A DNA stretch of 64,000 nt from a bacterium (GTDB lineage Bacteria; Bacteroidota; Bacteroidia; NS11-12g; UBA9320), in the NCBI GenBank assembly GCA_018223105.1, contig JAAEYY010000007.1:59765-123764 (forward strand), read 5' to 3'. Within the stretch, counting starts at the first letter, position 1, and the number at the start of each line of letters is the position of its first letter. Both the position numbers and the translations under genes were made by a program. The notes below the pieces were generated by a model. It made no database searches. It worked only from the letters and a program-made list of their open reading frames with translations, and was not told where the DNA came from. Positions 4,541 through 37,101 of this stretch are shown in pieces.

Positions 4541-4590
4541 TAAACTAGAAACGAAGTCAAAGAGATGTCTAGTATTTGTATTGATCCTAA

Positions 4591-5291: not shown

Positions 5292-5312
5292 GTGCCAAAA
5301 ACTCTTTTGGGG

Positions 5313-5938: not shown

Positions 5939-5946
5939 TGTAGTGT

Positions 5947-5977: not shown

Positions 5978-6024
5978 TAATCAATTGTTTCTTCACATAC
6001 TTAAAGCACAGAATTGGTTGATTC

Positions 6025-6315: not shown

Positions 6316-6322
6316 TATGTTT

Positions 6323-7276: not shown

Positions 7277-7375
7277 TGCTTCGTATTTATTTTATTTTCA
7301 TTTACTTGAGTTTACTGAGTATCTTAGATCAATTTATAGTCTTTGGGATATTAAATCCTATAACTTTAGTGCCTT

Positions 7376-7663: not shown

Positions 7664-7747
7664 TGGACTACTGAGGAAAATTCAAAAATCAAATTCCTCT
7701 ACTCAAAAGTAGTTCATAGCTATAAAAATACCAGAGCGACAGGAATC

Positions 7748-12245: not shown

Positions 12246-12911
12246 CTATTTTATGTTTCGAATGGCTTCTCTTTCGCTTAAGGGTGATAGTTTATGCTTT
12301 TTTACGAAGTCCAAGACAAACTGAGGATCGGTTCTACTGTATTCTCTTAAAGCCCAACCAATAGCCTTGCGAATGAAGAATTCTTTATCGTCTTTCTTAT
12401 TCAAGATATACCTGCTCAGCATGTCGGTATCCGTTTTATCTTTATACTTCAACTGAAAGATAATTGAACTCCTTTCGTACCACATCTTGCCGCTTTTGTT
12501 CCATTTTTCGGTGATACTTTCTTTCCTCTCCGGAAACTTCTTGAAGAAATGTCCAACGCAGGTTGTGGCGATATAATCAACAGAATCCCACCAGGAATTT
12601 TTTCCTATCATCCACTCTAAAGTTTCAATAGTATTCTCATTCCAGAGCTTCTTGTTCTTAAACACTAACTCCTGCCCGCACATATGCAGCTCTCGATACT
12701 CCTCTTCAAATAAACCCTTTGCAGTCGCTTCAAAATTCTGAATGGGTTCATGCTTATATAAAACCGTTTTGAAAATTTCGCGTCGTGGAGTTGCTTTAAG
12801 GCCATAAAATGGACATTGCTCTTTCATGTAGGCGTACATCTGCTCCGCATCCGAAGGGTTGCCTGCTTCGAGCATGGCTGCCTTTAAATCGTCTATGAAA
12901 TCGCGATCCAT
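12246..12911 (-). CDS. AlkD-like DNA alkylation repair protein
   Basis: A 221-residue HEAT-like-repeat DNA glycosylase of the AlkD family, which excises cationic N3/N7-alkylpurines. Characteristic blocks are CPFYGLKATPRREIF near the N-terminus, GKNSWWDSVDYIAT in the middle, and FIRKAIGWALREYSRTDP with the conserved Arg/Trp/Arg set. Length is normal. Its ATG overlaps the TAA of the prolyl oligopeptidase gene by one base, indicating cotranscription. I regard it as intact. Confidence 0.9.
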   Translation of the reverse strand: MDRDFIDDLKAAMLEAGNPSDAEQMYAYMKEQCPFYGLKATPRREIFKTVLYKHEPIQNFEATAKGLFEEEYRELHMCGQELVFKNKKLWNENTIETLEWMIGKNSWWDSVDYIATTCVGHFFKKFPERKESITEKWNKSGKMWYERSSIIFQLKYKDKTDTDMLSRYILNKKDDKEFFIRKAIGWALREYSRTDPQFVLDFVKKHKLSPLSEREAIRNIK

Positions 12912-15085: not shown

Positions 15086-17179
15086 TTATATTTTGATGAT
15101 GCGAACTACCTGAACGTCCAGATCATCTACCTTGACATGTAAAATGTACATACCGGATTCTTTAGGTAGTTCAAAGTCGATTAGTCTTTTATTTTTAAAT
15201 CGCTCAATTCCAATGAGCTGGCCCAAGCTATTATAGATTTGAATATCAATTGACTCTCTCGGTATGCCGAGATTGATATTTACAGTTCCTAGGTTTGGAT
15301 TCGGAAAGTATAGGATGGAATCGAGTGGAAATTCAGCGTTGAAATCGCCCTTGTTGACTGCTATGCACTCCGACATTATAGTACAGAGCGTATTGTCAAT
15401 AATGACAGCAAAAACTCCCTCGTACCAAGGTGTAAATCTTCTATTGGTTTCTCCGGTCAGTGGTTTAAAATCATCGAGGCAATCTACCCATTGAAAGGTA
15501 CTTCCTTGAGCAATGGAATACAAAGTGCCATCATCAAATTTGAGCACATCGGGTTTCGGTGATTCAAAGTCTAGCTTGATATGAATGATAGAATCGCATC
15601 CCACAGCATTTGGAATAGTGTCGTAGAATTCAATATCGTAGTAGTTATAAGCTACACCACTTGGACTTCGAAAGGGCCCACAAAGAGAAGTATCTATAAA
15701 TGTGAAACTTTTGTGATTTACGGTAAGGTCAATATCAGAATATAAGATACATCCTCCCGGAAGCGCTGAGGTGTCTTTAAAAACAGCCGATTGAGTGTGT
15801 AATTGCCCGCTTGGACTCACATATTCATCACATACAGTAAGTTCCAGGCTTTGAGTTTGGTTGGAACAAGGGTATGACTTATAAACATAAATGATGGAAG
15901 GTACCTGGATTTGACTTTTGAATGGAGGACTACAAGCCACCATCATGTAGTCATCGTTCAAACCAACCGATCTTCCAAACCCTCTGAAATTGAGTTTTTC
16001 AATAGGGGTGCTTGCTGTTACTTGGCTTTCAATAATTTGCACGTTTTGCCAGTCTTTCAGTACGTTCATGACAAAATTCACCTGACCAATTCTAGCATGA
16101 GGAGGGTCTTTGGGGAGTACAGAGTTGAATACCCCATATGCGAATCCATATTTGTTCTGCGCGAATTTATTGCGCTGGTTTATAGAACTTAATGGACGAA
16201 ATGTAATGGCTTCATGGTCTAAATTTAGCGAATCAAGCCATGGATAGAAATAAACCTGACTATCGGGATTTAGTTTACTTACCATTAAACCCTGATCACC
16301 CAGATTGAGTTCCCAGCCAAAACGGTTATATGCTTTTGGATAGGGGTTTTTAAAAGTTTCGATGAACTCTAGTTTACCATCAATTAGATTATATAATTTA
16401 AAACTACCGGCGATTTCAATCGAATCTGAAGCTGTGACATAATCTTCGAGAGGGCTGCTAACTATAATGAGTTCATTGTATGATTCTATGGCGGCGCCAA
16501 AGCCTTCTCCATCAAGAGGGGTGGGGTCAAGGAAGAAAGTATCATATTCAAAGCTGTCCGATCCCAGTTTGTAACTTAAAACTGCTCCTAAACTAGAATT
16601 GTCTGTTTGGTCAAATACATTTTTGGGGCTATATGTTGCCCCAATTAGAAGTTGTTCATTAATTATGAGATTATCTGAGCCAAAACCGGTGCTTTTATTA
16701 TTAATGGGGTTGTATATGGTTTGAAAATGCTCGAAAAAACCATTTTCATTCACATTGAATATAGCAACTGCACCAATTAGATTGATTCCTTTTGTGTTCT
16801 TTTTGAATGTAGCATTGTAGTCAGAAATAATTAGATAATTACCAGATAGATTTATAGAAACAGACTGAAAATTACCGCCCGTAAAAGGTAATATGGCTTG
16901 ATGGAATTTCCATTTAGAACTGAGTGAATCGTATTTGAATATCTGATATTCATAACTAGTTCTCATATCTTGTTCTGATAGATCATAGTGATTAATCCAA
17001 GAGCTTACAAAACAATAATCTCCTTCAACTCTAACTAGCTCTGCAAAATATCCGGGTATTTCAGAGCTTGGTGGTTGTAAATGATTGAAATTACGCTCTA
17101 TACTATCCTCCAAGACCCATTTCTGCCCAAAACTATTAAGACAGATCAGGGTGAATATGATAAAGATAGCGCGTAGCAT
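15086..17179 (-). CDS. T9SS sorting-domain FG-GAP propeller protein, paralog 1
   Basis: 697 residues: Sec signal peptide (MLRAIFIIFTLICLNSFG), an FG-GAP-type propeller region to about residue 430 (repeats such as GEGFGAAIESYNELIIVSSP), two Cys modules (CDEYVSPSGQ with GGCILY, then CGPFRSPSGV with GCDSIIHI), an Ig-like module around FQWVDC (about 565) with later paired Cys, and a type A T9SS sorting domain from about 622 (YFPNPNLG to RIIKI). It should be exported across the outer membrane by T9SS and surface-attached or released. Ligand unknown; integrin-like propellers suggest binding. It is the distal member of the eight-gene family, 71 bp from paralog 2, and has its own promoter box. Confidence 0.88.
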   Translation of the reverse strand: MLRAIFIIFTLICLNSFGQKWVLEDSIERNFNHLQPPSSEIPGYFAELVRVEGDYCFVSSWINHYDLSEQDMRTSYEYQIFKYDSLSSKWKFHQAILPFTGGNFQSVSINLSGNYLIISDYNATFKKNTKGINLIGAVAIFNVNENGFFEHFQTIYNPINNKSTGFGSDNLIINEQLLIGATYSPKNVFDQTDNSSLGAVLSYKLGSDSFEYDTFFLDPTPLDGEGFGAAIESYNELIIVSSPLEDYVTASDSIEIAGSFKLYNLIDGKLEFIETFKNPYPKAYNRFGWELNLGDQGLMVSKLNPDSQVYFYPWLDSLNLDHEAITFRPLSSINQRNKFAQNKYGFAYGVFNSVLPKDPPHARIGQVNFVMNVLKDWQNVQIIESQVTASTPIEKLNFRGFGRSVGLNDDYMMVACSPPFKSQIQVPSIIYVYKSYPCSNQTQSLELTVCDEYVSPSGQLHTQSAVFKDTSALPGGCILYSDIDLTVNHKSFTFIDTSLCGPFRSPSGVAYNYYDIEFYDTIPNAVGCDSIIHIKLDFESPKPDVLKFDDGTLYSIAQGSTFQWVDCLDDFKPLTGETNRRFTPWYEGVFAVIIDNTLCTIMSECIAVNKGDFNAEFPLDSILYFPNPNLGTVNINLGIPRESIDIQIYNSLGQLIGIERFKNKRLIDFELPKESGMYILHVKVDDLDVQVVRIIKI

Positions 17180-17184
17180 GAAAC

Positions 17185-17192
17185 CAAATATA
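17185..17192 (-). promoter_or_regulatory. Promoter -7 box of paralog 1
   Basis: TATATTTG, an exact TAnnTTTG match, ends 5 nt upstream of ATG 17179. The box is also found before paralogs 2 and 7, suggesting that the members are transcribed separately. Confidence 0.45.
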
Positions 17193-17250
17193 GGGATTAG
17201 ACGGATTTTGAGTGCTTATCGTTGCAGCATTTGACGGAAGGCTGATGGGG

Positions 17251-19305
17251 TCACCTTACTATTTTAATAACTTCTGTCCCACTTTCAGTCGTTACCATCA
17301 AGTAATAAATTCCTGCTGTATGTGGAATTTGAATCTCAATCTCCTTGTAATTGTAAAAGTGCTGCTTTAAGACAGTTTGACCGATGTTGTTTGTAAGTTC
17401 AACAGAAACGTTTTCTTGCGGTTGTACAAAGTTGACCTTTAGTGTACCATTACTCGGTACTGGGCCCGCCGAAAATGCTCCCGGGTTTTTGTTCTCAACT
17501 TCGTAGTAGACACAGCTCGATACCACTTCACAGCTATTATTCCACACTCTTACAGCATAAATTCCGGTGCTAGGCGGAGAGAAACTCTTCTCATTGGAGT
17601 TTTCTAAAACGATAGTGCTATCTGAACAGTCGAACCAGTGATAATATACGTTATCAGCAGCAACTGTAATACCATTGTCTGTGATTTCAAGATCTGCCGC
17701 AGGAGTAATGCTGGTAAGGTGATAATGAATGATGCTATCACATCCCGAAACATTTAAAATGGTGTCTCTGTGGTTTCCTGCAATTACCGTTGATTTACCG
17801 CTGGGGAAAACAAACTTTTCACAGAAGACCTCATTGCGATCCCCTTCTGAAGTGAAGTCCACGGTTAAATCTATATCCCAATACTTAACGCAACCGCCTG
17901 GCAAGTAGGTGGTGTCTAAGAACTTTGCACTTTCTCTATGAAATTTCCTCGAAGGAGAATAATACCATTCACAAGCATGAGGACTGATGGATACAAATGA
18001 ATCTGTACAGGGTGTTGGTTGAAAGAAGTAGAGATCTCCACCCCAATTGCTAGTGGGTAAGAAAATGGAAGGACTACTACATATTATAAAACTATCACTC
18101 ACATTTAACCCAATGCCAAACCCTCGGTAGAAATTGAGTGAGTCGAAGGTTTGTGCCCTGTTCGGGCTGAAAACAATCTGTGTATTACGGTATTTGCCGT
18201 GAATTTCTTTGAATGTGAGAATTGCACCGTTTGACATTCGAGTGAAATCAAGTGGCCTAAACTCTTGAAATGATATTATGATTTCAGAACTATTCTGATC
18301 AAAATGTGGCTCTCTTACGTTTCCATTAGAAAATGGTAGTGTCAACTGCTGCGCGTTCCCATTGAACACATCTATAATATAAGCTCTGCTGAAATTACTT
18401 TGATAGGATGCTGCCATCAAACCATGTGGTCCTAATTTTAGGTGATAACCAAAACGCAATTTTGGATGTAGATCCGGGCAGTATATGCTGTCTACAAGAG
18501 TTAGCTCTTTTTTAGAAATTGAATAAACATAAACAATACCGAATCCGGGATGTAAACTACTGTTCTTTTCTTTATGCTCCGTGGCAGAAACTACTAGGAC
18601 ATTTTTATATAAGCTCATAAACTCCCCATACTGCTGGTGTTCAGGGTTCAGTTCATAAGATCCTTTAAGTCTAGGCTTGATATATTCATTCTGATACTCC
18701 CATTGTCCCTGATTCAATGAATATAAATGAATCGCACCTGCATTGATATAGTGAGAGGATTGATAAAAGGTGTCCAATTGAGGACTGCTTACTATCATCA
18801 CAGAATCATTGATCTCCATACTATACCCAAACCGGGCATAAATTTGATTGCTCGGGCTCAATAGAGTTTGAGTTAAGCTCCATTCATTCTGCTTTGATTT
18901 ATTATAAACGAAAATGGCACCGTGTCTCAGTCCCAGGTTAGGTTCCGGTACATCTTGGTAGTTGTAGGCCCCCACAAGAATGGTGTTTTTATAGATTTTA
19001 ACCGTAGCCTTAGTCTCTTCTGTCCACGGTGAAGCATGGGTTTCAATTTCCTGGGAGAATGACCATTTGCCCGTGCTGGAATCTAAGGTGTAGATCTCAA
19101 TAAAAGAGCTATAAGGTATTTCCGCATCTGGATCTAAACGGATGGAATGCACTACCAATGTATTTTCGTAATGATCTACACTAAGTGCTTGATATTGATC
19201 CAAGCCATGCTCTTTTTTACCCGAAATCCTTTGATCTAACTTCCAGCCTTGAGCTTGACTTGCAATAATGAAAATGTACGTTAAGAGAAGGGCAATGGAG
19301 CGCAC
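17251..19305 (-). CDS. T9SS sorting-domain FG-GAP propeller protein, paralog 2
   Basis: 684 residues with the family layout: signal peptide (MRSIALLLTYIFIIASQAQ), propeller repeats such as YARFGYSMEINDSVMIVSSP, first Cys module CEWYYSPSRK with GGCVKYWDIDL, second with FPSGKS and GCDSIIHY, then YYHWFDC followed by paired Cys, and a sorting domain starting GPVPSNG and ending EVIKIVR. The second module begins VFCEKFVFPSG. The start is GTG at 19305 with an exact promoter box 4 nt before it. It lies directly downstream (57 bp) of a PorV/PorQ-family gene in the same orientation, so it may be a preferred cargo. Confidence 0.87.
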   Translation of the reverse strand: MRSIALLLTYIFIIASQAQGWKLDQRISGKKEHGLDQYQALSVDHYENTLVVHSIRLDPDAEIPYSSFIEIYTLDSSTGKWSFSQEIETHASPWTEETKATVKIYKNTILVGAYNYQDVPEPNLGLRHGAIFVYNKSKQNEWSLTQTLLSPSNQIYARFGYSMEINDSVMIVSSPQLDTFYQSSHYINAGAIHLYSLNQGQWEYQNEYIKPRLKGSYELNPEHQQYGEFMSLYKNVLVVSATEHKEKNSSLHPGFGIVYVYSISKKELTLVDSIYCPDLHPKLRFGYHLKLGPHGLMAASYQSNFSRAYIIDVFNGNAQQLTLPFSNGNVREPHFDQNSSEIIISFQEFRPLDFTRMSNGAILTFKEIHGKYRNTQIVFSPNRAQTFDSLNFYRGFGIGLNVSDSFIICSSPSIFLPTSNWGGDLYFFQPTPCTDSFVSISPHACEWYYSPSRKFHRESAKFLDTTYLPGGCVKYWDIDLTVDFTSEGDRNEVFCEKFVFPSGKSTVIAGNHRDTILNVSGCDSIIHYHLTSITPAADLEITDNGITVAADNVYYHWFDCSDSTIVLENSNEKSFSPPSTGIYAVRVWNNSCEVVSSCVYYEVENKNPGAFSAGPVPSNGTLKVNFVQPQENVSVELTNNIGQTVLKQHFYNYKEIEIQIPHTAGIYYLMVTTESGTEVIKIVR

Positions 19306-19309
19306 ATCT

Positions 19310-19317
19310 CAAATATA
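19310..19317 (-). promoter_or_regulatory. Promoter -7 box of paralog 2
   Basis: TATATTTG, an exact TAnnTTTG match, ends 4 nt upstream of GTG 19305 and supports the non-ATG start. Confidence 0.45.
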
Positions 19318-19361
19318 GCCCATTATTGCGGATGTTTTCTATTGCGAAATGTAAAGAATGA

Positions 19362-20438
19362 TTAATTCTCCGGATTAATGCTTGCGCGTATACTAAATAC
19401 GTGTGAGTACTGAGCAACTCCACCGCTTCCAACATCACTCAAAGCATAATCAACAGCGATTCTTTTCAGATTTAAACCGACACCAATATTTGGCTGGGCA
19501 ATCCATTCTTTCTTGTATTCAAGATTTCGAACTTCCTGAATATTGCCAACACCTGCTCTTACAAATATGATATCGTTATATCCCGCTTCGATACCCATGT
19601 GAGGATCAAAGCTGACAAAATCAGTTTTCAGTAGCGTATTACGTCTACCATCTGTATTCATGTCGATATCAAATTCACCTCGAATACTGTAATCTTCACC
19701 AATTTCAAATCGCTTCGCTACACCAAATAGAATTTTAGGAAGTGTAATCTCCAAGGAGTTTACCGGAATCTCATTGTTGGTCTGCTCCAGAATATCTTTC
19801 TGAGCAGCAGTGAAATTGTATTTCCAGGCATTGAAGGTAGAAGTGATGTCTTTACCCATTACAGCAAAAGTCCAGTTCCCGGGTGTCATATATTGCATTC
19901 CCACATCTACTCCAAATCCCCAAGCTGTTGCAAATTCACCGGCTCTTCTGTGAACAATCTTAGCAGAACCACCGAAGTTCAGACCTTCAATAGAAGTCTT
20001 TTGTGCATAGCTGAAAAAGAATCCATAATCAACTGCACTGAATGAGGTAACTCTATCGTAATTAATTTGGCCATTTTGAAATAAATCTAAGGTGTTTGGG
20101 ATATTGTCAATACCAAAACGAACCATAGAGAAACCAATGGCTGCTTTGTCTTTGACCAATGCTCCTAAGCCGATGTAATCATAATTTGCTATCCCCGAGA
20201 AATATGCGGAGTGCATAAATGAAAGTTGTAATTTGTCCTTCTGACGAACTAGTCCTGCCGGGTTCCAAAAGCCGGAAGTTACATCGTCTGTAGATGCAAC
20301 ATAGGAGTTAGACATGCCCAAGGCACGCGCTCCAACGCCAATGCTTAAAAATTCGTTACTGTACTTAGGTGTGCTCTGTGAAAAAGAAGCAGTACTAAAT
20401 AGTACAATAGCGGCAAGAGTAGTTAGTATAGGTTTCAT
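19362..20438 (-). CDS. PorV/PorQ-family outer-membrane barrel
   Basis: 358 residues from ATG 20438 (signal peptide MKPILTTLAAIVLFSTASFS). The mature start SNEFLSIGVGARALGMSNSYVASTDDVTSGFWNPAGLV is the hallmark of the FadL-like PorV/PorQ family. PorV itself (LptO) is a T9SS component that shuttles cargo from the translocon to the attachment complex; PorQ is a relative. This protein is somewhat shorter than classical PorV (about 390), so it may be the paralogous PorV2/PorQ-like form. It sits immediately upstream of two T9SS cargo genes, which suggests a dedicated role; that is inference. A TAAATTTG box lies at 20456-20463. Confidence 0.82.
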   Translation of the reverse strand: MKPILTTLAAIVLFSTASFSQSTPKYSNEFLSIGVGARALGMSNSYVASTDDVTSGFWNPAGLVRQKDKLQLSFMHSAYFSGIANYDYIGLGALVKDKAAIGFSMVRFGIDNIPNTLDLFQNGQINYDRVTSFSAVDYGFFFSYAQKTSIEGLNFGGSAKIVHRRAGEFATAWGFGVDVGMQYMTPGNWTFAVMGKDITSTFNAWKYNFTAAQKDILEQTNNEIPVNSLEITLPKILFGVAKRFEIGEDYSIRGEFDIDMNTDGRRNTLLKTDFVSFDPHMGIEAGYNDIIFVRAGVGNIQEVRNLEYKKEWIAQPNIGVGLNLKRIAVDYALSDVGSGGVAQYSHVFSIRASINPEN

Positions 20439-20460
20439 CGGTAGGTGCTGTATTGCAAAT

Positions 20461-21117
20461 TTATAAAAGTTGTATCTCAAGTTCTCCAAGTGAACGCTCT
20501 AACTGAGGTTCTATTGCTTCGGATATTTCTGTGAGTAACTCTTTCTGACCCTCGGTAAACTCTTTTAAGCTCGCTCGAATGGCCACTTTTTCCAGCATGT
20601 CAATTGCATTTTCTATGCTGGTATATTTCTTCAGAAATGCAGCTTTCATAAAACGACGATGATTTCCTTTAAAGAGTTCATCGTCTTGTAGTCCGCTGTA
20701 TCTCAGGTATTTAAGTATCCAATCCATCTCTATGCTGTCTATCATTGCATAGAATTCATCTGCCAAACTTGGGTTCTTATCCAATAGAATTTTATCTAAA
20801 AGGATCTCCACCAAAATATGAGAAATGAAATAATCTCGGTCTAAATCTTTGTCGCCACTCTCGCGAATACTGTCTATCGCTTCTTGCGAAAGTTTGACAA
20901 AAGTAGACCAGTTATGAAATTTTCTATCACTGGCGAAATGTCGGTTGCAACCTCTGTTGATCGATCCAATCTCCTCGGTTGTGAATTCAATATTTCTATA
21001 TGGGTTAATGCGTAGTTTAGGAATATGAGCACGGGCAAGGTCAGGAAGTATTAAACCTAAGTTGTAATACTTATTATCATCAACCCGATCAAAATAAAAA
21101 TGACTTAAGTAATTCAC
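20461..21117 (-). CDS. ACP phosphodiesterase-like protein
   Basis: A 218-residue protein resembling the AcpH family, which removes the phosphopantetheine group from acyl carrier protein. It has the family start MNYLSHFYFD, the LGLILPDLAR block where AcpH has LGNxxGD, NRGCNRHFASDRKFHNW in place of GIxLHRxID, and the HD-like helix RDYFISHILVEILLDKILL. The typical residues are partly changed, so activity is uncertain and related Bacteroidota proteins are often left unnamed. It starts with GTG at 21117; the MNYL motif supports this start. Confidence 0.55.
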   Translation of the reverse strand: MNYLSHFYFDRVDDNKYYNLGLILPDLARAHIPKLRINPYRNIEFTTEEIGSINRGCNRHFASDRKFHNWSTFVKLSQEAIDSIRESGDKDLDRDYFISHILVEILLDKILLDKNPSLADEFYAMIDSIEMDWILKYLRYSGLQDDELFKGNHRRFMKAAFLKKYTSIENAIDMLEKVAIRASLKEFTEGQKELLTEISEAIEPQLERSLGELEIQLL

Positions 21118-21122
21118 TAGTG

Positions 21123-21130
21123 CAAAGAAA
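21123..21130 (-). promoter_or_regulatory. Promoter -7-like box, near-leaderless
   Basis: TTTCTTTG (one base from TAnnTTTG) ends 5 nt upstream of GTG 21117. The same octamer at the same spacing precedes the GT2 gene at 59102. Confidence 0.3.
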
Positions 21131-21206
21131 ACAAATTACTTACAATTTGGGTAACAATAAAACCCTACTTTCGCTGTTAGTATACTAATTTCAAGACATT
21201 TTAATC

Positions 21207-21749
21207 ATGATTAATTTAAGACTACTAGGAACTACTTTTCTTTTTGTTTCCATTTTTTCTTTTGCTCAAGAGACGCAAATCCCTACTAATGAAAAAACAG
21301 GTTTAGCCGAATATACCGAGGTTATTACCGTTACAGGTGCTTCTGCCGGTGATCTCTACGCTAGAGCTTTACTCTGGTTAGATGATTTTTATCCTAACCC
21401 ACACGGTGTGGTTCAAAGCAAAGATTCTGCAGTTAGAATAACAGGTCGACACCAGTTTAGATTAAGCCTCACCGATAAAAAAGGAAATGAATCTCCTGCG
21501 GGATTTGTTACCTATAATTTTACAATGGAGTTCAAAGACGGTAAGTTTCGTTATGTAATAGATAACATCAACGAAAAGAAAACTTCAGCTTTTGACATCT
21601 CTAAGTGGGAAGATAAAGATGACCCTAATTACAAGGAAGAACGCTATGAGCAGTTTATCGCACAAACAACTGAGTTTTTTAATAATATGATTGAGACCAT
21701 GTACGATAGACTTACCACTCCGATTGAAGAAGAAAGTTCAGATTGGTAA
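21207..21749 (+). CDS. DUF4468-type secreted protein
   Basis: A 180-residue protein with a signal peptide (MINLRLLGTTFLFVSIFSFAQ). The mature domain has the DUF4468-like pattern: VITVTGASAGDLYARALLWLDDFYP, a short strand run with ITGRHQFRL, and GFVTYNFTMEFKDGKFRYVIDNI. The domain is common in Bacteroidota periplasmic proteins and has no known biochemical role. The neighbouring peroxiredoxin-like gene starts 31 bp downstream, so they are probably cotranscribed. TACTTTCG at 21166-21173, with TTTG at 21146-21149, may be the promoter. Confidence 0.75.
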   Translation: MINLRLLGTTFLFVSIFSFAQETQIPTNEKTGLAEYTEVITVTGASAGDLYARALLWLDDFYPNPHGVVQSKDSAVRITGRHQFRLSLTDKKGNESPAGFVTYNFTMEFKDGKFRYVIDNINEKKTSAFDISKWEDKDDPNYKEERYEQFIAQTTEFFNNMIETMYDRLTTPIEEESSDW

Positions 21750-21780
21750 ACTGTACGGTTTTAAATCTGTTACACTTCAA

Positions 21781-22422
21781 ATGCGAATATTACAAATCGT
21801 TCTTATTGCTTCTATTTTAGCTGCTTGCGGTAGTAAATCTGCCCGCCATATGAAGCGGCTCGACCATTTTGGAATTGATACTACTAATTCAGTTCCCTAC
21901 AGTTTAGATGTAGGAACTTTGGCGCCTGTAATTCAATTTACAGAAGTGGATTCAAATGGGATTAGTACTTCGTATTCATCAACGGAAGTTGTCCGAGAAA
22001 AACCATTGGTAGTATTGTTTTACAGGGGCCATTGGTGTCCGGTTTGCAATAAGTATTTAAGTGCATTTAACGACTCTTTGGGTATCATTTTGGAACGAGC
22101 AGAGGTTTGGGTGGTCACACCAGAGAAACCGGAATATGTAGCGCTCACCAGAGAAAAAACCGGCCTTACAGCCAAGGTGATTTCGGATACTAGCCAGAAA
22201 ATAATGAAGGATTACAAGGTCTTGTTTCACGTAAACGAGCAGTACCGGAAAAAAATTGATTTAGCGCTGAGTGAAGACCTGAAAGAAACTAATGGTGATG
22301 ATGTTCTGCCGGTACCGGCAACCTATGTCATCGACGAAAATCATAAAATTGTGTTTAAGCAATTCGACCCTAATTACAAAAACAGAGCTACAGTAATGTC
22401 GATTCTGAGAAACCTGCCCTAA
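21781..22422 (+). CDS. Peroxiredoxin-like lipoprotein
   Basis: 213 residues from ATG 21781. Signal peptide MRILQIVLIASILAAC with lipobox Cys16, then a thioredoxin fold: PLVVLFYRGHWCPVCNKYL holds the active CxxC (Cys86, Cys89), and VPATYVIDENHKIVFKQFDPNYKNRATV is the cis-Pro region and final strands. It resembles the AhpC/TSA-like peroxiredoxin-like family and should reduce peroxides or disulfides in the periplasm. A longer frame beginning at 21691 overlaps the DUF4468 gene and hides the signal peptide, so it is rejected. The dps gene follows on the same strand, fitting an oxidative-stress theme. Confidence 0.8.
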   Translation: MRILQIVLIASILAACGSKSARHMKRLDHFGIDTTNSVPYSLDVGTLAPVIQFTEVDSNGISTSYSSTEVVREKPLVVLFYRGHWCPVCNKYLSAFNDSLGIILERAEVWVVTPEKPEYVALTREKTGLTAKVISDTSQKIMKDYKVLFHVNEQYRKKIDLALSEDLKETNGDDVLPVPATYVIDENHKIVFKQFDPNYKNRATVMSILRNLP

Positions 22423-22483
22423 TCATTCTCATTGCTGATGTTTGTATAGATTAATGCGATAAAAATGCAAGAAGTGGCTAAGG

Positions 22484-22491
22484 TATCTTTG
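22484..22491 (+). promoter_or_regulatory. Promoter -7 box of dps
   Basis: TATCTTTG, an exact TAnnTTTG match, ends 4 nt upstream of ATG 22496. No TTTG is seen at the -33 distance. Confidence 0.45.
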
Positions 22492-22495
22492 TAGT

Positions 22496-22960
22496 ATGAA
22501 TTCAATAGGATTACCACAACAAGACTCCAAAAAACTGATAGAAGCTTTAAATGAGCTTCTCGCTGACTATTCCATGCTGTACATGAACACGAGAGGGTTT
22601 CATTGGAATATCAAAGGACGCGACTTTTTCGAATTGCATGTAAAATTTGAAGAAGTTTACAATGAGCTAGTGCTTCAAATCGATGAAATTGCCGAGCGAA
22701 TTTTAACCTTGGGAGGAACACCTGTTCACGGGTATTCAGAATACATGAAGATTTCGGATATCAAGGAAATTATGAATGTGAGCGATGGAAAAACAGCGTT
22801 GGCCTCCATCCTCGAGAGTTATCAAACCCTTGTCAAAAAACAAAGAGCAATCTTAAGCATCGCAGCTGAGATGGATGACGAAGGCACAAATTCTCAGATC
22901 AGCGACTATATCATGCTTCAGGAAAAACACATCTGGATGTTTAAAGCATATTTGGCCTAA
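22496..22960 (+). CDS. dps: Dps ferritin-like DNA-protection protein
   Basis: A 154-residue Dps/ferritin-like protein that stores iron and protects DNA from peroxide as a dodecamer. The inter-subunit ferroxidase residues are visible as His36 (GFHWN), His48 (ELHVKFEEVY), Asp63 and Glu67 (QIDEIAERI). Their spacing (12, 15, 4) equals that of the well-known Dps site. Length is normal for Bacteroidota Dps. It has its own promoter box and lies between a peroxiredoxin-like gene and a MATE exporter gene. Confidence 0.92.
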   Translation: MNSIGLPQQDSKKLIEALNELLADYSMLYMNTRGFHWNIKGRDFFELHVKFEEVYNELVLQIDEIAERILTLGGTPVHGYSEYMKISDIKEIMNVSDGKTALASILESYQTLVKKQRAILSIAAEMDDEGTNSQISDYIMLQEKHIWMFKAYLA

Positions 22961-23001
22961 GGTTCATTATATCGAAATAAAACCTCATTTTCGCCGGCAG
23001 T

Positions 23002-24333
23002 TTGGCACAAACATCAGATAAACTCGGATCATTACCCATTGGAAAACTGCTCTTGCAGCAATCCGTTCCTGCAGCCATAGGCTTTTTGGTAATGTCGATT
23101 TATCAGATCGTAGACGTTTTCTTTGTGAGCCGTTTTGTGGGAACCAATGCGGTTGCTGCAATTAATATTGTATTGCCTATTACCTTTTTAATTTCTTCCT
23201 TCGGGATGGCAGTGGGTATCGGTGGTGGCTCCATTATTTCTAGAGCTCTAGGTGCAGAAGACAAGGAAAAAGCCGCAAGGACCTTTGGAAATCAAATCAG
23301 TCTGACACTGGGATTCTCTCTGTTTTTTGTGGCGATGAGTTTTATCTTCAGTGAACCTATCCTTCGCGGTTTTGGTTCAAACGATGAAGTTCTTCCTCTA
23401 GCTCGAGATTATTTTCATATCCTATTGCTCGGCGTGCCTTTTTTAGGCTGGGCCATGATGAGTAATAATGTGATTAGGGCAGAAGGTAAGCCTAAAATCG
23501 CAATGCTTACACTCGTTATTCCTGCGGTTGCTAACCTCATCCTGGATCCCATTCTAATTTATTATCTGGATATGGGAATCAAAGGTGCAGCTTGGGCTAC
23601 CACTATTGGCTACTGGTGTAGCGGCCTCTATACTCTTTGGTTTTTCCTCAGAAATAAAAGCGAAATACCACTTCACATCCCCAACTTTAAACTGCGTAAA
23701 GAACTTGTTCGGGAGATTGGCTCAATTGGCTCTGTTACCTTAGTAAGGCAGGGTAGCTTCAGCTTGTTGGCTGTGGTTTTAAATAATTCATTGGAACATT
23801 ACGGTGGCACAATAGCACTGGCCATATACGGTTTAATTCGAGGATTTACGCTCTTTGTAGCCTTCCCGAATATCGGGATTATGCAAGGATTAATGCCGAT
23901 TGTAGGTTTTAATCATGGGGCTGAACGCTACGATCGTCTGAAAGAGTCACTTCGTTTATCCGTGATCTGGACCACGGCAACCTCCTTAAGCTTATTCATT
24001 TTATTGGCCATCTTTTCAAAAGACTTGGTACATCTGTTTACCGACGACCCAGAATTGATGGAAAGAACACCTAGAGCCTTGGTAATTACCTTTTTAGGGC
24101 TGCCAACCATGGGTATTAGCTTTATTGCTGCGGCTTATTTTCAAGCCATAGGTAAAACTAAACCTGCTATGATCTTAACACTCGCAAGACAGGGGATGTT
24201 TATGATTCCATTAGCCTTAATTCTGCCGCTGAAATTTGGTTTAGACGGGATCTGGTTTTCTATGCCGATTGGCGAAATTCTCGCTGCTTTAATCTCTTCA
24301 ATTTGGCTCTACAGAGCAGTGAAAGATTTTTAA
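23002..24333 (+). CDS. MATE family efflux transporter
   Basis: A 443-residue integral membrane protein with about 12 hydrophobic segments and MATE signatures: PIGKLLLQQSVPAAIGFLVMSIYQIVDVFFVSRFVG at the N-terminus, NNVIRAEGKPKIAMLTLVIPAVANLILDP in the middle, and the second-half repeat QGLMPIVGFNHGA. It should export drugs or metabolites with Na+ or H+ exchange. The start is TTG at 23002. Its stop overlaps the convergent stop of T9SS paralog 3 through the shared palindrome TTAA. Confidence 0.93.
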   Translation: MAQTSDKLGSLPIGKLLLQQSVPAAIGFLVMSIYQIVDVFFVSRFVGTNAVAAINIVLPITFLISSFGMAVGIGGGSIISRALGAEDKEKAARTFGNQISLTLGFSLFFVAMSFIFSEPILRGFGSNDEVLPLARDYFHILLLGVPFLGWAMMSNNVIRAEGKPKIAMLTLVIPAVANLILDPILIYYLDMGIKGAAWATTIGYWCSGLYTLWFFLRNKSEIPLHIPNFKLRKELVREIGSIGSVTLVRQGSFSLLAVVLNNSLEHYGGTIALAIYGLIRGFTLFVAFPNIGIMQGLMPIVGFNHGAERYDRLKESLRLSVIWTTATSLSLFILLAIFSKDLVHLFTDDPELMERTPRALVITFLGLPTMGISFIAAAYFQAIGKTKPAMILTLARQGMFMIPLALILPLKFGLDGIWFSMPIGEILAALISSIWLYRAVKDF

Positions 24334-26360: not shown

Positions 26361-26418
26361 TTCTAAGGGGCAATTTAGTTAATTTCTAATGGAATTGCTC
26401 ACCTCTGCTCAAGGTAGA

Positions 26419-28488: not shown

Positions 28489-28507
28489 TGCTAGATTAGA
28501 AATCGTT

Positions 28508-28515
28508 CAAAGATA
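28508..28515 (-). promoter_or_regulatory. Promoter -7 box of paralog 4
   Basis: TATCTTTG matches TAnnTTTG exactly, 19 nt before the TTG start of paralog 4. It supports separate transcription of the array members. Confidence 0.4.
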
Positions 28516-28557
28516 AATTCAATTCAAGCCAATACTTACATCTCTATGTAAAAGGGA

Positions 28558-30609: not shown

Positions 30610-30622
30610 GAGCTCTTGAAAT

Positions 30623-30630
30623 CAAAAATA
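30623..30630 (-). promoter_or_regulatory. Promoter -7 box of paralog 5
   Basis: TATTTTTG, a TAnnTTTG match, 13 nt upstream of ATG 30609. Confidence 0.35.
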
Positions 30631-30730
30631 AAAGAGACATAGGCAAGTTAACCATATCTGACAGATTCCTTACAAGAAATATAGGAGTGGGGAGAGGGTT
30701 TGAGATTTTAACTCATTTAATCTAGGGGGG

Positions 30731-32755
30731 CTATAGCAAAATCATTTTAGTACGTGCGGTTTGTCCAGAAGCTTTTACTACTAGAATGCTATAAACACCC
30801 GGTGTAAGTCTTAGTTCGAATCTCTTTGAGAACGAATCTTCAATGATGTAATGTTTAACAATTTGACCTTCAGGGTTTAATATTGAAATTTTAGCATTTT
30901 CTTCATAGGTTAACCAGTCTAAAGTGAATACTCCATTATTGGGGTTTGGATACACTTTAATTTCAGGTAGGGTTTGAGTATTAACCTTAAAGTCAGATAC
31001 AAAATAGCAATCAGTAATAAAGGTGTCACAGTCTTCTGAATACATCTTAAGGGCATATAACCCACTACTACGAGGTATGAAACTCCATGAATTTTCGGAT
31101 GGGAGTTCTCTGCCGGTATAACAATCTATCCATTGATAATATTCTTTGTCTCTAGAAATTGTGCTTAAAATTCCATTCTCTAGTTCAAGAGTTGCATGAT
31201 AACCAATGAATTGCGCATTTATTTTAATCACACTATCACAACGATTAGCACTTCTTAGAGTATCGAATATCACATCACTTATTCTCGTGCTGTACTTCCC
31301 ACTTGGGCTAATATATTCACTGCAAAATGTATAGTTTTCTTCTACTTTGATGTGAGAATCGATTTGCACATCCATCCAGAAATATTGTGAGCAACGGCCC
31401 TCCATTATTAAACTGTCAAGGTAAGTCCCTGAACTGTATATGGTGAATTCTTTACTTATAGAAGAGAATGAGCTACATCTATGTTTGACTATTTGAATAG
31501 TGTCTGAATTGCAAGATTCATTTTCTAAAACTGCAATTTTTGAGAATTTACTATTCGAGGCTTGAGTATTTCTATTTAGGCCGACAGTAAGAACCTGGTC
31601 ATTTGCTTTTACCAAAGTAGAAGCTGAAGTATAGCTTTCAAATCCCCCTATTGTTGGAATTGATATTGTATAAGCATAATTAGAGTCATCATTCATATTG
31701 GAAAAAAGATATTCTCGTATTTCATGGAATACTTGCCCAGTATCATAGTTACTCCAATTTGATGCAGAAATTATCAAACTGGAGTCCGTAAAAACGGCAT
31801 TACCCATAAAGCTATGCCTGCTAACAGTTATAGGGATATTAGAGGGTCCATAATATGTTGCATGTGGTTTGAATTCAAAATCGTTTAGTCTAAATAATTC
31901 AATTTTAGAGACCTTGTAGTCTGTAATAAGCAAGGTGCTGTCATTCAGTAACTTTATTGTCCCGACTTGATTAAGATTAAAGTCAATATTATTATAAGCC
32001 GGTACGAGTCCATTGCTTCGCGTTTTGAAGAATCGAAAGCTCTGAATAAATTCGGGGTTACTAGAATCACCCAGTTGTGGCCTTATTTCGGATACACAGA
32101 CTAATGAATCTTCCACAAAAATCCAATTTCCAAACCATTGACCAGACGTAGGTTTGGGTGAAAATATATTTTTCATTTGATTATTGAATCGATTACCTTG
32201 GATTTCAAGGTCCAGTATGCGTCCGGCAAAGTTATATGTGGAATTATTCTGTTTTATAGGTGCCGTAGGTTCAGAAATTAGTAAGTGATTTTTTGACAAT
32301 TCAAATTTTAATGAAGTACTAAATGTATCCAATAGTATCTTGTTGTCAGATTTTTCCCATAAGCCTTGGCTATTAATGGCGTATAAATCCAGATTGTAAT
32401 GGTAGTAATAATTTGAGTCTCTGCTTTTATAATATTGAATAACTAGAAACGAATCACTAACCCAAAAGTCTTCAATTTTATAATCGTTCCCATGGATATG
32501 TGGCCTCAATTTGATAGTTTGTTTAAACTCCCACATGGAAGACACCGAATCTTGTCTGTAGTAATATAGATATTTAGACACTGGGAATACATCTGAACTA
32601 ACTATGAGATGTTTATATGAATTTTTGATTAATGTACCGTAAGAAACACGGGTTTCATCTGATTCTAATGTTTGAATAGTAGTCCAGTGTATGTTCTGGG
32701 CTAGAACCAAAAGAGAATTCAAGAGAATAATCAATGCAATGATCAATCGAGGCAT
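30731..32755 (-). CDS. T9SS sorting-domain propeller protein, paralog 6 (divergent)
   Basis: 674 residues, the shortest and most divergent member. It has a signal peptide (MPRLIIALIILLNSLLVLAQ), but FG-GAP repeats in the propeller region are degenerate (few FG or GAP motifs, many Tyr and Asn). The Cys modules persist as CSSFSSISKEF with RCSQYFWMD and CSEYISPSGKY with RCDSVIKI, then YQWIDC and CDTFITDCYFV, and a sorting domain VYPNPNNGVFTL to RTKMILL. So the C-terminal half is conserved while the propeller has drifted. The gap to paralog 5 is 121 bp with nothing visible in it. Confidence 0.85.
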   Translation of the reverse strand: MPRLIIALIILLNSLLVLAQNIHWTTIQTLESDETRVSYGTLIKNSYKHLIVSSDVFPVSKYLYYYRQDSVSSMWEFKQTIKLRPHIHGNDYKIEDFWVSDSFLVIQYYKSRDSNYYYHYNLDLYAINSQGLWEKSDNKILLDTFSTSLKFELSKNHLLISEPTAPIKQNNSTYNFAGRILDLEIQGNRFNNQMKNIFSPKPTSGQWFGNWIFVEDSLVCVSEIRPQLGDSSNPEFIQSFRFFKTRSNGLVPAYNNIDFNLNQVGTIKLLNDSTLLITDYKVSKIELFRLNDFEFKPHATYYGPSNIPITVSRHSFMGNAVFTDSSLIISASNWSNYDTGQVFHEIREYLFSNMNDDSNYAYTISIPTIGGFESYTSASTLVKANDQVLTVGLNRNTQASNSKFSKIAVLENESCNSDTIQIVKHRCSSFSSISKEFTIYSSGTYLDSLIMEGRCSQYFWMDVQIDSHIKVEENYTFCSEYISPSGKYSTRISDVIFDTLRSANRCDSVIKINAQFIGYHATLELENGILSTISRDKEYYQWIDCYTGRELPSENSWSFIPRSSGLYALKMYSEDCDTFITDCYFVSDFKVNTQTLPEIKVYPNPNNGVFTLDWLTYEENAKISILNPEGQIVKHYIIEDSFSKRFELRLTPGVYSILVVKASGQTARTKMILL

Positions 32756-32758
32756 GTC

Positions 32759-32766
32759 CGAAATTA
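32759..32766 (-). promoter_or_regulatory. Promoter -7-like box of paralog 6
   Basis: TAATTTCG, one base from TAnnTTTG, ends 3 nt upstream of ATG 32755; a TTTG lies 14 bp further upstream, closer than the usual -33 spacing. Confidence 0.3.
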
Positions 32767-32888
32767 AATAAAATAAGTAACAAAGTGGTTTCTAGTAAAG
32801 TCATAATTCTTGTAAATGATAAACAAAAATTATCGCTTCTAGTGAAAAGCTATGATCCTTAGAATGAGCCAGCTTTGTGGTATGCCAA

Positions 32889-34985
32889 TTACCCACCACG
32901 CCCTACATTCATTACCTTAAAGTATTTAATCCCTTGATTCTTTGGTTTGACCCTGAGGATATACATTCCGGACTCTACAGGTAAAGTGAAGTCCAGTGTG
33001 TAAATATTGCGATATATACCATGCTCTATTGTGCGCCCTTTATTATCGCTTAACCAAATCTCGACTTCATCGTAACGCTGCCCCAAATCCAAATAGGTTT
33101 TCCCATAACTCGGGTTGGGATAAACTCGGATGGTATCCCAATATGGAAAAATCAACTGAGAGCGATTGATAAAGCGGCATGTGGAGGTGTCTAAACAATC
33201 TCCTTTTTTCAGAGCCACAGCATAAAGTCCTTCCTCTAGTGGAGCGAATTTTCTGCTTGAATCTTCCAAGATTACTTCTCTGTTAAAACAGTCAAACCAG
33301 TGATAGTACACGGATTCGAATTCTAGTGATTGTAGTTCTCCTTTGCTTTCATGAAGAACAACGTCTGTATTGGGGTGATTATATGTGAGATTGATCCTGA
33401 TTACACTATCACAACCATTGGAATTTACGAGTAAATCAAAAATAATAGTAGATCTCGCAACGATTTCACTTCCTGATGGTGTTGTATATGGTACACAACT
33501 AATAGTATCTATGGTGTGATATGTCTTTTGGTGAATCTTAAACTCTGTATCAACGAGTTTGAGGCAACCTCCGTCCAAGATTACGGTGTCTGTGAAATGA
33601 CGACTCTCTGTTATGGGTTTGCCGGATGGGCTATAAATCACATAACAATTCTCATCCTTTATCGTGTCGTATTTAGTAACACAGGGCTTAGGACTATATA
33701 CTAAAATACTACCTCCTTGAATTTGAGTGAAAGTAGAATCTTCATTGTACCTATCCTTGTATGCTCCTACAATTAGTAAACTGTCTTTAAGAATGAAGCT
33801 TTTGCCAAAGTCATTTAAGTGATTGTATGGACAGCGTATAGTATAATGATGCGTTAAGACTCCGGAATTATTTTCAAATATGTGAACTTGCCCGGTGGTG
33901 TTTTGAAATGGATCGGTAGGGGCTGTATTCACTTTTTGCGGTTCTGCAATAGCTACAAAATTTTCACTCTGACCCAAAATTGTCCCTATTTGTGGAGATG
34001 ATCCATTGCTGAAATTTATTCGATCAACAATTTGCCATGTAGTCCCAAAATCGCGAAGTAACAAGGTAGAATTAGTAGGATTCTTACCTTGACATAATAA
34101 TCCCAAAGGTCCTAGGCTGGTTACAAGGCCAAAATTGTGTCTTAATAAACGAAGATCGTCCAGAATTTTTTGTCGGAAATAAAAGAAACCATCAATATCT
34201 TGCCTGTACATACAAACTGCTCCGGCTTGATCCACAGGGAATTTTTCATTTTCGTTGTAGTCTTCTCCCGGGACACCTATTGCTAGCCATTCCGATCTCA
34301 AAGAAATTGAAGCACCAAATCGTTCACTAGTTCTTCTTAAATTATCGCAGAGCTTTCCCAATTCCTTCCATTGCCCGCCGGTTTGTTTTTGAAAAATATA
34401 AACAGCTCCTGCTTCTTGAAACCAGTTGCTGTCATTGTGATCAGTTGGGTCTCCCGGACTTCCAACCACTATTGTTCGTTCCGAAACTTGAACAGCAGTT
34501 CCAAATACTCCTTTTTCTTTGGGTTTAGATGCAGTATATCTACCGACTTCAATCCAGACTCCATCTGGTATTAATCGATACACATAAATACAACCGGCAT
34601 TTCTATAGTTTTTACCATTGTGAATTATATCTGAAGTGTCACCTACAACCAAGGTACTGTCTGTACATGCTATGCTGCAGCCGTAAGAATTGCTGCCAGA
34701 GCTTGGCCTCAAGTACTGTAAAAACTTCCATTGATTTTGAGTAGAGTCAAATTTAAAAATGCACACTGCTCCCAATGTATCATTGTTTATTCCTGAACTG
34801 ATAAACCACTTTGTATTGCTCGCGGCGAAAAGAAATTGGTCATTGACAGCTAAGTTCTGACTGAATTGATCTCTGTAGTTCCATTCATCCGGACTCAGTT
34901 TTTGATCCACATTCCATACCTGTGCATCGGCCGTATAAGCAAGGAAAATGAATGAAATTAAGAGGGTATGGACAAAGGGGGCCAT
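32889..34985 (-). CDS. T9SS sorting-domain FG-GAP propeller protein, paralog 7
   Basis: 698 residues from ATG 34985 (MAPFVHTLLISFIFLAYTADA); a TTG two codons upstream is less likely because an exact promoter box abuts the ATG. Strong FG-GAP repeats: GVFGTAVQVSERTIVVGSPG with calcium-loop-like DPTDHNDSNW, and RFGASISLRSEWLAIGVPG with DYNENE. The variant blade is FGLVTSLGPLGLLCQG. Cys modules CYVIYSPSGK with GGCLKL and CVPYTTPSGS with GCDSVIRI; then YYHWFDC and CLDTSTCRF; sorting domain VYPNPSYGKTYL to YFKVMNVGRGG. It is the longest member of the family together with paralog 1. Confidence 0.88.
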   Translation of the reverse strand: MAPFVHTLLISFIFLAYTADAQVWNVDQKLSPDEWNYRDQFSQNLAVNDQFLFAASNTKWFISSGINNDTLGAVCIFKFDSTQNQWKFLQYLRPSSGSNSYGCSIACTDSTLVVGDTSDIIHNGKNYRNAGCIYVYRLIPDGVWIEVGRYTASKPKEKGVFGTAVQVSERTIVVGSPGDPTDHNDSNWFQEAGAVYIFQKQTGGQWKELGKLCDNLRRTSERFGASISLRSEWLAIGVPGEDYNENEKFPVDQAGAVCMYRQDIDGFFYFRQKILDDLRLLRHNFGLVTSLGPLGLLCQGKNPTNSTLLLRDFGTTWQIVDRINFSNGSSPQIGTILGQSENFVAIAEPQKVNTAPTDPFQNTTGQVHIFENNSGVLTHHYTIRCPYNHLNDFGKSFILKDSLLIVGAYKDRYNEDSTFTQIQGGSILVYSPKPCVTKYDTIKDENCYVIYSPSGKPITESRHFTDTVILDGGCLKLVDTEFKIHQKTYHTIDTISCVPYTTPSGSEIVARSTIIFDLLVNSNGCDSVIRINLTYNHPNTDVVLHESKGELQSLEFESVYYHWFDCFNREVILEDSSRKFAPLEEGLYAVALKKGDCLDTSTCRFINRSQLIFPYWDTIRVYPNPSYGKTYLDLGQRYDEVEIWLSDNKGRTIEHGIYRNIYTLDFTLPVESGMYILRVKPKNQGIKYFKVMNVGRGG

Positions 34986-34988
34986 ACT

Positions 34989-34996
34989 CAAATATA
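34989..34996 (-). promoter_or_regulatory. Promoter -7 box of paralog 7
   Basis: TATATTTG, an exact TAnnTTTG match, ends 3 nt upstream of ATG 34985, the tightest spacing in the window among exact matches. Confidence 0.45.
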
Positions 34997-35052
34997 GGGA
35001 TAGCCTCAGATTTTCTTATCATCCTCTTAAGGATATGACATTAATCCAAAAC

Positions 35053-37101
35053 TTAGTGGCTCAAAATTCGAAAGCGTTTGACCATTGTCCCGCTGCGGAC
35101 CACGAGGATGTATGGACCAGGCGAAAGTTCGAACTCGAATTCATTTTGCTTAGATGCCAGACGATAGTCTTGGAAAATGAGTCTGCCTTGAGCATCATAC
35201 AGCTGCACATCAATTCTATAATTTCGAAAATCGTCGGGGAAGTGCAAAGTCAATTCAGAGTTGAATGGATTGGGGTGAACCCAAACAGAATCGAAGAAGA
35301 CCAACTCTTCAGTCTGATTCTCGAAATAAACACAATTAGAGGTGTCCACACATGTTCTTCTGGTCAGAATGAACGAATAAGCCCCGGTTTCTGTTGGGTT
35401 TAATCTCTCAGACTTTTCATCTTCTAAAAGTTCCAAACTGTCTGTACACTCGTACCACTGAATAGAGTACGGATCTTCTGGTGGATTTAGAAAATACAAG
35501 CCTTCGGAGTCCTTTGATATGTTGGCATCGTTGTTAATGATAGTAACTTCATAAAAGACATTACTGTCGCAGCCATAAGTAGAAGTAAGGTACTCTCTTA
35601 TGGTTCCGCTTTCAGTTAATCTGGTTTGATTTCCGGGTGAAATGAACTCATAACAAGCGGTGTCTTTTCGGTGCGTTTGAATTCTTTGATAAACATTCTT
35701 TAATTCTATATTCACTAAAACCGGACATAATTGCTCATTATAAATGGTGTCTGTGTAATTCCCTGCTTCTTCATAGAATTTACCGCCACTGGGGGCTTCG
35801 TATTTGTAGCAAACTCCTTCAACTAATATGGTGTCGTAGTGAGTTTGGCAGTAATCTAACTCAGCAGTAGAGAAGGCTCCGATATTACTATAATTTGAGT
35901 CCGAATAAGTCTTCATACCAAAAAGAATAGAAGAATGATAGACATTCAATTTAGAGATATTGTAATCGGTTCTATATCGAATACCCATTTTTACCCATTC
36001 ATTGTTAATGTGCTGATAAGTGAATAGATTATTGTCGCTGTATGGGTAAATAATATGAAGTAAAGAGTCGGAAAACACAGCTTGGCAATCACTGAAATTA
36101 GAGATGATATGATTTGGTGCTTCAAGACTTTGATAGTCTTCCCACAAGCCTAAATAGTTCTTTTTAAAAACCGAGGGGAATGTTGAAGACCGAGAAGTAC
36201 TCACGGCTAGAAATGAGCCGGAAACTGAAAATGTGTGCCCAAACCTCGAATTCGACCTGTAAATTTTGGGTCTGAGAATTTGGCTGAGTTCATAAACACT
36301 ATCAGCCTTATGATATACCAATAAGGCTCCTGCCGAAGAGGTCTTGTTTTCACCTACTCCATAATATCCGCCCGGCGCAGCAACTAGCAGCTCTGTCCCG
36401 TCAAAAGCGAGAGAAAAACCTAACTCAGCAACGGATCCATCTTCTCTTCCTTCATATGTAAGGGTATAGCATAATTTTGATTGACCCGTGATTTCATACA
36501 TGAAAACAGCCCCCGCTTTTGGAACGGAGTCAGTTGCAACAGTTTCTCCATACGCATACTCACTCGCTCCAATGGCTAATGAGTCATTATGGAAGTCTAA
36601 AGCTGATCCAAATTGGGAGTACTTATGTAAAATAGGAGGGTCAATATTTTCCCTATGCTCCCATCTATTGTTTCTTAGTTCGTAAATATAAACTCTACCT
36701 CCATTTTGAATTACACCTTGAAGTGTGTAGAAATCGGTAGAAGGCGCACCTATAAAAAGCAAGTCCTCAGTAATCAGCAATGAATGGCCAAAGTCTGAAA
36801 AATTTTGAGTGCTTGGAGGAATGATTTTCTGAACAAATTTCGGTTCTGAATTATCACGAATTTTATAGATGTATACTGCACCTTGAGTATAACTGGGCTT
36901 TCCATCTTTATACAAAGTCTTATATGGACTGGCAACGGCTATAAAAGAGTCGTTTTGTGCTATGGTTTCTCCAAATTGCTCATTGCTAGAAGTTGCTTCT
37001 TCCGGACATAAAGTAGGCTCAATCCCATTAAATGAAAAAGTTTGACAGTAGGATTTACCGCATGAAAAGAGAACTATGAAAATGAGTATAATTCGAGGCA
37101 T
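35053..37101 (-). CDS. T9SS sorting-domain FG-GAP propeller protein, paralog 8
   Basis: 682 residues: signal peptide (MPRIILIFIVLFSCGKSYCQ), FG-GAP repeats (QFGETIAQNDSFIAVASP, DFGHSLLITEDLLFIGAPS, QFGSALDFHNDSLAIGAS, ELGFSLAFDGTELLVAAPG), Cys modules CYKYEAPSGGK with LCPVLVNIEL and CYEFISPGNQ with GCDSNVFY, then IQWYEC in place of YxWxDC, CVDTSNCVYF, and a sorting domain VHPNPFNSEL to RFRILSH. It lies 45 bp downstream of sucA on the same strand, and I see no good TAnnTTTG box before it, so it may be read through from sucA. Confidence 0.88.
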   Translation of the reverse strand: MPRIILIFIVLFSCGKSYCQTFSFNGIEPTLCPEEATSSNEQFGETIAQNDSFIAVASPYKTLYKDGKPSYTQGAVYIYKIRDNSEPKFVQKIIPPSTQNFSDFGHSLLITEDLLFIGAPSTDFYTLQGVIQNGGRVYIYELRNNRWEHRENIDPPILHKYSQFGSALDFHNDSLAIGASEYAYGETVATDSVPKAGAVFMYEITGQSKLCYTLTYEGREDGSVAELGFSLAFDGTELLVAAPGGYYGVGENKTSSAGALLVYHKADSVYELSQILRPKIYRSNSRFGHTFSVSGSFLAVSTSRSSTFPSVFKKNYLGLWEDYQSLEAPNHIISNFSDCQAVFSDSLLHIIYPYSDNNLFTYQHINNEWVKMGIRYRTDYNISKLNVYHSSILFGMKTYSDSNYSNIGAFSTAELDYCQTHYDTILVEGVCYKYEAPSGGKFYEEAGNYTDTIYNEQLCPVLVNIELKNVYQRIQTHRKDTACYEFISPGNQTRLTESGTIREYLTSTYGCDSNVFYEVTIINNDANISKDSEGLYFLNPPEDPYSIQWYECTDSLELLEDEKSERLNPTETGAYSFILTRRTCVDTSNCVYFENQTEELVFFDSVWVHPNPFNSELTLHFPDDFRNYRIDVQLYDAQGRLIFQDYRLASKQNEFEFELSPGPYILVVRSGTMVKRFRILSH

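Follow-up and report, generated by a model that had tools for sequence, protein, structure and literature searches.

What do eight paralogous genes of nearly equal length encode, and how did they come to crowd a single stretch of a Bacteroidota genome? The window analyzed here comprises 64,000 nucleotides of contig JAAEYY010000007.1 (positions 59,765 to 123,764 of the forward strand; assembly GCA_018223105.1; lineage Bacteroidia, NS11-12g, UBA9320), and the genes, P1 to P8, lie on its minus strand between positions 15086 and 37101. A first-pass annotation had described them as duplicated and diverged surface proteins of the type IX secretion system (T9SS) that act as one adhesion or recognition system, perhaps with variable surface display. 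The evidence supports a T9SS-exported surface family that has duplicated and strongly diverged and is specific to this lineage; the proposals of a single system and of variable display found no support. On balance, we read the array as eight cell-surface proteins with a putative binding role, whose diverged heads sit on a shared stalk and whose genes duplicated, within this lineage, into two joints of a gene backbone that relatives conserve.

Architecture and relatedness of the array proteins

The eight open reading frames (ORFs) span 674-700 codons without internal stops, and none is decayed: P1 (15086..17179, 697 aa), P2 (17251..19305, 684 aa), P3 (24330..26360, 676 aa), P4 (26419..28488, 689 aa), P5 (28558..30609, 683 aa), P6 (30731..32755, 674 aa), P7 (32889..34991, 700 codons counted from a TTG at 34991, although its start is probably the ATG at 34985), and P8 (35053..37101, 682 aa). 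The intergenic gaps in the array are short (46-133 bp). All members share one order of parts, namely a signal peptide, a degenerate propeller, a pair of short cysteine modules, one Ig-like module, and a C-terminal sorting domain (CTD) of type A. A hydrophobic, signal-peptide-like N-terminus, judged by reading the sequence alone rather than by a predictor, precedes an invariant glutamine in every protein, and the sorting domain scores 25.2-39.4 bits against TIGR04183, above the NCBIfam cut-off of 23, in all eight (CTD 34 bits in P2). Six members exceed the Pfam cut-off for FG-GAP_2 (P2, P3, P4, P5, P7, and P8; 25.7 bits in P2); P1 matches it at 14.5 bits only, and P6, the most diverged member, has no Pfam FG-GAP match, only a predicted propeller fold. 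The two modules described as C...SPSG were recovered through their invariant cysteine pairs, but SPSG itself is not invariant and is exact in both modules of P1 only; P3 has a shortened second module. The Ig-like module, with its W..C and two later cysteines, is present throughout. Eight cysteines (C438, C450, C477, C500, C528, C567, C599, and C605 in P1) are among 25 invariant alignment columns, which also include the glutamine after the signal peptide, the tryptophan and cysteine of the Ig-like module, and a P-x-P in the sorting domain. Within the propeller, the invariant residues are glycines, one phenylalanine, and one leucine.

Pairwise identity among the members is 19-28%, and all 28 pairs are recovered by BLASTP at E <= 2e-11. 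Mean identity is lowest in the propeller (19%) and higher in the Ig-like module (24%), the CTD (25%), and the cysteine modules (29%). In leave-one-out profiles, where seven members build the profile and the eighth is scored, the full-length array proteins reach 243-470 bits. Three more genes of the same genome, on contig C4, score 288-363 bits, while all other proteins tested stay at or below 207 bits, including a lectin-headed tandem pair (C8), three further FG-GAP proteins of the genome, and a singleton from another genus of the family (G012; L141:7506-9647, 713 aa). By these scores, the array and the C4 genes together make up a single full-length family of eleven in this genome. As whole proteins, the eight are thus closer to each other than to unrelated FG-GAP proteins; for the head this is only partly so, since the propeller-only profiles of P2, P5, P6, and P8 score no higher than generic FG-GAP proteins. 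Module trees are star-like with long tips, most carrying 1.5-3.6 changes per column, and the duplications cannot be ordered from them. Full-length and propeller trees support a split between the window eight and the C4 three (100/98 and 100/100), but stalk trees do not; the G012 singleton falls inside these trees, where long branches meet. Another FG-GAP cargo (C42c), considered as a calibration of head divergence, has no orthologue in the six nearest relatives.

AlphaFold models of P3 (pLDDT 72, pTM 0.54) and P6 (pLDDT 73, pTM 0.56), built on shallow alignments, place a beta-propeller-like head on a beta-rich stalk. The best PDB matches of P3 in Foldseek are integrin alphaV (E 2e-13), and those of P6 are integrin alphaX and assorted propellers (E about 1e-8); a 12-sequence profile searched against PDB retrieves T9SS sorting domains, with integrin alpha-6 as a weak match. 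The head is thus probably an integrin-type, seven-bladed propeller, with the blade number taken from the strand pattern and from seven repeats in the G012 singleton. The array proteins resemble bacterial integrin-type propellers (PMC3192720, PMC9218822) in the FG-GAP blade signature, where it is recognizable, and in the predicted fold, for which integrin alpha is the top PDB match. They differ in the seven conserved Ca2+ loops described by Chouhan et al. (PMC3192720), of which P1-P8 retain essentially none: a simple DxDxDG-like pattern finds 0-1 loose matches per protein, compared with six in G012, five in G005, and four in G035. Since other FG-GAP proteins of the group range from 0 to 5 loops, their loss in P1-P8 is not unique. 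The G012 singleton has the same order of propeller, two cysteine modules, Ig-like module, and CTD at 18-26% identity to the eight, but is a single gene with seven canonical FG-GAP_2 repeats (355 bits) and retained Ca2+ loops.

Insertion into a conserved gene backbone

In about ten relatives (G008, G011, G013, G016, and the metagenome-assembled genomes L152, L154, L157, L159-L164, and L166), the genes around the array follow the order Mfd-SucA-MATE-(Dps)-(DUF4468)-hyp218-PorV2-(POP)-AlkD, where POP is a prolyl oligopeptidase-like gene, with no propeller gene between; some genes are missing in some relatives or lost at contig ends, and the records of the near metagenome-assembled relatives are labeled Bacteroidetes or Bacteroidia only. 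In the window, six propeller genes occupy the joint between SucA (37147..39873, minus strand) and MATE, and two lie between PorV2 (19362..20489, minus strand) and POP (12911..15037, minus strand). SucA lies directly beside MATE and Mfd in the relatives, and POP adjoins PorV2 in L167. The closest relative is G008, by SucA (78%), PorV2 (71%), and hyp218 (79%), and since MATE and SucA overlap there by a few bases, the joint is closed in that genome. The blocks of two and six with other genes between them were rightly described, but the reading is reversed: the propeller genes are most likely gains within a conserved backbone. SucA, PorV2, hyp218, and MATE are 59-79% identical to their nearest relatives, compared with 19-28% among array members, and the GC content of the array (36-40%) is the same as that of its surroundings.

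The propeller-stalk family occurs in numbers only in this genome, with eight genes here and three elsewhere, when compared with about 480 other genomes. At E <= 1e-60, this genome alone has full-length matches among 108 order members and in a class sample of 395, in searches that scored the top candidates per genome and in which diverged single genes such as that of G012 fall below the threshold; matches in those genomes cover the stalk only. Similarly, five of seven near relatives queried with P4 match from residue 432 onward only, that is, in the stalk and not in the head. P5 found no relative in named genomes, and a plasmid search gave partial matches only. A pattern query from the alignment of all eight was dropped for its low conservation. 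The source genome is the sole representative of its genus in the comparison set, and by parsimony the array is most likely a lineage-specific gain.

The remaining backbone genes also occur without the array. The gene first called PorV/PorQ can be narrowed to PorV2 (NF052325, 471 bits), a backbone gene also present in relatives that lack the array. The gene immediately upstream of it, hyp218 (20461..21117, minus strand), encodes 218 aa with no Pfam or NCBIfam match; hyp218 holds that position in many Bacteroidota, even where identity drops to 26-29%, and is a candidate functional partner of PorV2. The plus-strand genes at 21207..24333 encode DUF4468, TlpA-like, Dps/ferritin-like, and MATE proteins, of which MATE, Dps, and DUF4468 belong to the backbone. 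Beyond SucA, a 1036-aa T9SS cargo gene (39981-43091, minus strand; three GBD_T9SS_assoc domains, four Ig_7 domains) separates SucA from Mfd, its neighbor in relatives. At the other end, a Clp-fold protease of the phage head maturation type (phrog_11747, 312 bits) adjoins a run of small minus-strand ORFs (2420-8650) that mostly lack a family match, and this region is possibly a prophage remnant.

Export, expression, and competing explanations

The genome encodes SprA (2418 bits) and PorU (1216 bits) and carries 134 sorting-domain matches, the usual load for its family. The invariant glutamine of the array agrees with the Q-rule, which places a glutamine after the signal peptide (PMC5837995), and from these signals P1-P8 are most likely T9SS-exported, surface-anchored proteins. 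Export would begin with Sec, directed by the signal peptide and leaving a mature N-terminal glutamine, and would continue through SprA with a PorV-type carrier; the PorU sortase would then remove the sorting domain and anchor the protein. In Porphyromonas gingivalis, PorU cleaves type A cargo, which becomes attached to anionic lipopolysaccharide (A-LPS) (PMC9143113), and by analogy P1-P8 may share this fate. At the surface, a stalk of two cysteine modules and the Ig-like module, presumably rich in disulfides, would raise the propeller head. The loops of this head may contact a ligand, for which polysaccharides and surface components of particles or other cells are the likeliest candidates. As for its origin, a propeller-on-stalk gene would have duplicated into two joints of the SucA...PorV2...AlkD backbone, after which the heads would have diverged far beyond most neighboring genes, with loss of the canonical calcium loops.

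The motif TAnnTTTG corresponds to the flavobacterial sigma-A -7 element (PMC9723704), and five of the eight genes (P1, P2, P4, P5, and P7) have it no more than 60 nt from the start; shuffled sequences average 0.38 such genes, and none of 500 shuffles reaches five. The boxes, all on the minus strand, read TATATTTG before P1 (17185..17192, 5 nt before the start), P2 (19310..19317), and P7 (34989..34996), TATCTTTG before P4 (28508..28515), and TATTTTTG before P5 (30623..30630). Those of P1, P2, and P7 sit 3-5 nt before the start codon and would give nearly leaderless mRNAs, a class that is uncommon in Flavobacterium psychrophilum (5.5%; PMC9723704). The boxes suggest that most array members have their own promoter and may be expressed independently, in which case the array is probably a repertoire of separate specificities rather than one machine.

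Several observations weigh against this picture of diverged binding proteins duplicated in place. No clear -33 box accompanies the five -7 boxes, so the case for individual promoters is suggestive only. No ligand can be read from the sequence. Chain-wide TM-scores are low (0.33-0.35), and the fold is therefore claimed for the head only, where the P3 model lacks its sixth blade region (residues 329-389). The star-like tree cannot set the eight apart as one clade from the G012 singleton, and an array already diverged at acquisition would look the same. The alternative that we take most seriously, though we still judge it unlikely, is that the array was diverse before it arrived, through horizontal uptake or a move from another genome site as an already diverged set, with no divergence in place. 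The paralogues lie no closer to one another than to the G012 singleton, the tree is star-like with long tips (1.5-3.6 changes per column on most), the nearest genomes lack full-length relatives, and a second cluster of three genes exists on contig C4. Such an arrival is harder to reconcile with an array GC (36-40%) equal to that of its surroundings, with the absence of long repeats at the blocks, and with the lack of a donor holding full-length members among the roughly 480 other genomes.

It is improbable that the heads are enzymes, such as polysaccharide lyases or glycosidases, and the array a degradation set. A GH19 chitinase on the same stalk in G027 (L205) indicates that catalytic heads are possible, and propeller glycosidases (beta-xylosidases) rank low among the Foldseek matches to P6; however, Pfam, NCBIfam, and PDB sequence searches return FG-GAP and integrin families only and no enzyme family, and the propeller lacks an invariant set of acidic or histidine residues. 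A single coordinated or phase-variable recognition system, its members made together as a complex or switched, would fit the shared strand, the 46-133 bp gaps, the equal lengths, and the common module order, yet it appears quite improbable. Five of the eight genes have their own -7 box, the genes between the blocks are backbone that exists without propellers, and the heads of half the members are no more alike than generic FG-GAP proteins. Nor did a repeat scan of the array reveal a means of switching: the longest direct repeat measures 33 nt (70-79% identity), and apart from one 19-nt inverted pair and one weak tandem repeat there are no notable inverted repeats, phase-variation tracts, invertible or slippable sequences, or recent conversion. 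Least probable of all is a dedicated export module in which P1-P8 are specific cargo of the neighboring PorV2. P1 and P2 do directly follow PorV2 on the same strand after a 56-bp gap, but 30 of 39 genomes, the source genome among them, have a PorV2 that clears the family cut-off and the array is present in the source genome only, while the hyp218-PorV2 pair is conserved far beyond the family without the array.

Comparable systems and the shared stalk

The best comparison for a lineage-specific array of surface proteins is the tandem leucine-rich repeat (LRR) T9SS adhesins of F. psychrophilum (PMC9723704, PMC8400371), which likewise place many tandem paralogous putative secreted adhesins at one locus. 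That locus has 17 genes induced by fish plasma, and its copy number varies between isolates (PMC9723704, PMC8400371). It differs in its LRR heads and in being repetitive enough for copy-number variation, whereas the array here has propeller heads, 19-28% identity, and no DNA-level repetition. A literature search on FG-GAP T9SS proteins found none under those terms. The family and its position are new, but the kind is already known from other bacteria as tandem T9SS adhesin arrays; this is not a new kind of system.

The stalk, consisting of cysteine modules, Ig-like module, and sorting domain, is widespread in Bacteroidota, although the sorting domain is the only part that matches a Pfam or NCBIfam model here. 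Elsewhere it carries Laminin_G_3/lectin-like, GH19 chitinase, PKD, propeller, or unnamed heads, often in tandem gene pairs. Lectin-headed relatives in G016, G019, G035, and this genome itself (L030) share the stalk and a similar total length with the array, but have a Laminin_G_3 head and more cysteine modules. In the L030 pair (C8; 3210-5366 and 5490-7628), stalk DNA is 92-100% identical over the last 300 codons and the heads are 54-71% identical, a pattern that suggests stalk conversion or partial duplication, though it could also reflect assembly collapse in a metagenome contig. The array itself shows no such pattern. On the same contig, L030:201-3122 encodes a 973-aa protein (start cut or uncertain) with repeated 'GCDS'-type cysteine modules, which no Pfam model fits beyond a weak Choline_bind_1 match, and a sorting domain at its end.

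A bolder and rather doubtful extension is that the shared secretion stalk is a platform for head exchange and diversification, in which recombination would keep stalks exchangeable while heads diverge, and on which this lineage would have built its own integrin-like, calcium-independent receptor repertoire. If so, the C8 pair would capture that process under way. The array itself is a clean case of lineage-specific surface-protein expansion, with empty sites known in relatives, a stalk that is common, and a head that is private. Provided that the heads differ in their ligands, the array would be a ready panel for studying how attachment diversifies in uncultured Bacteroidota.

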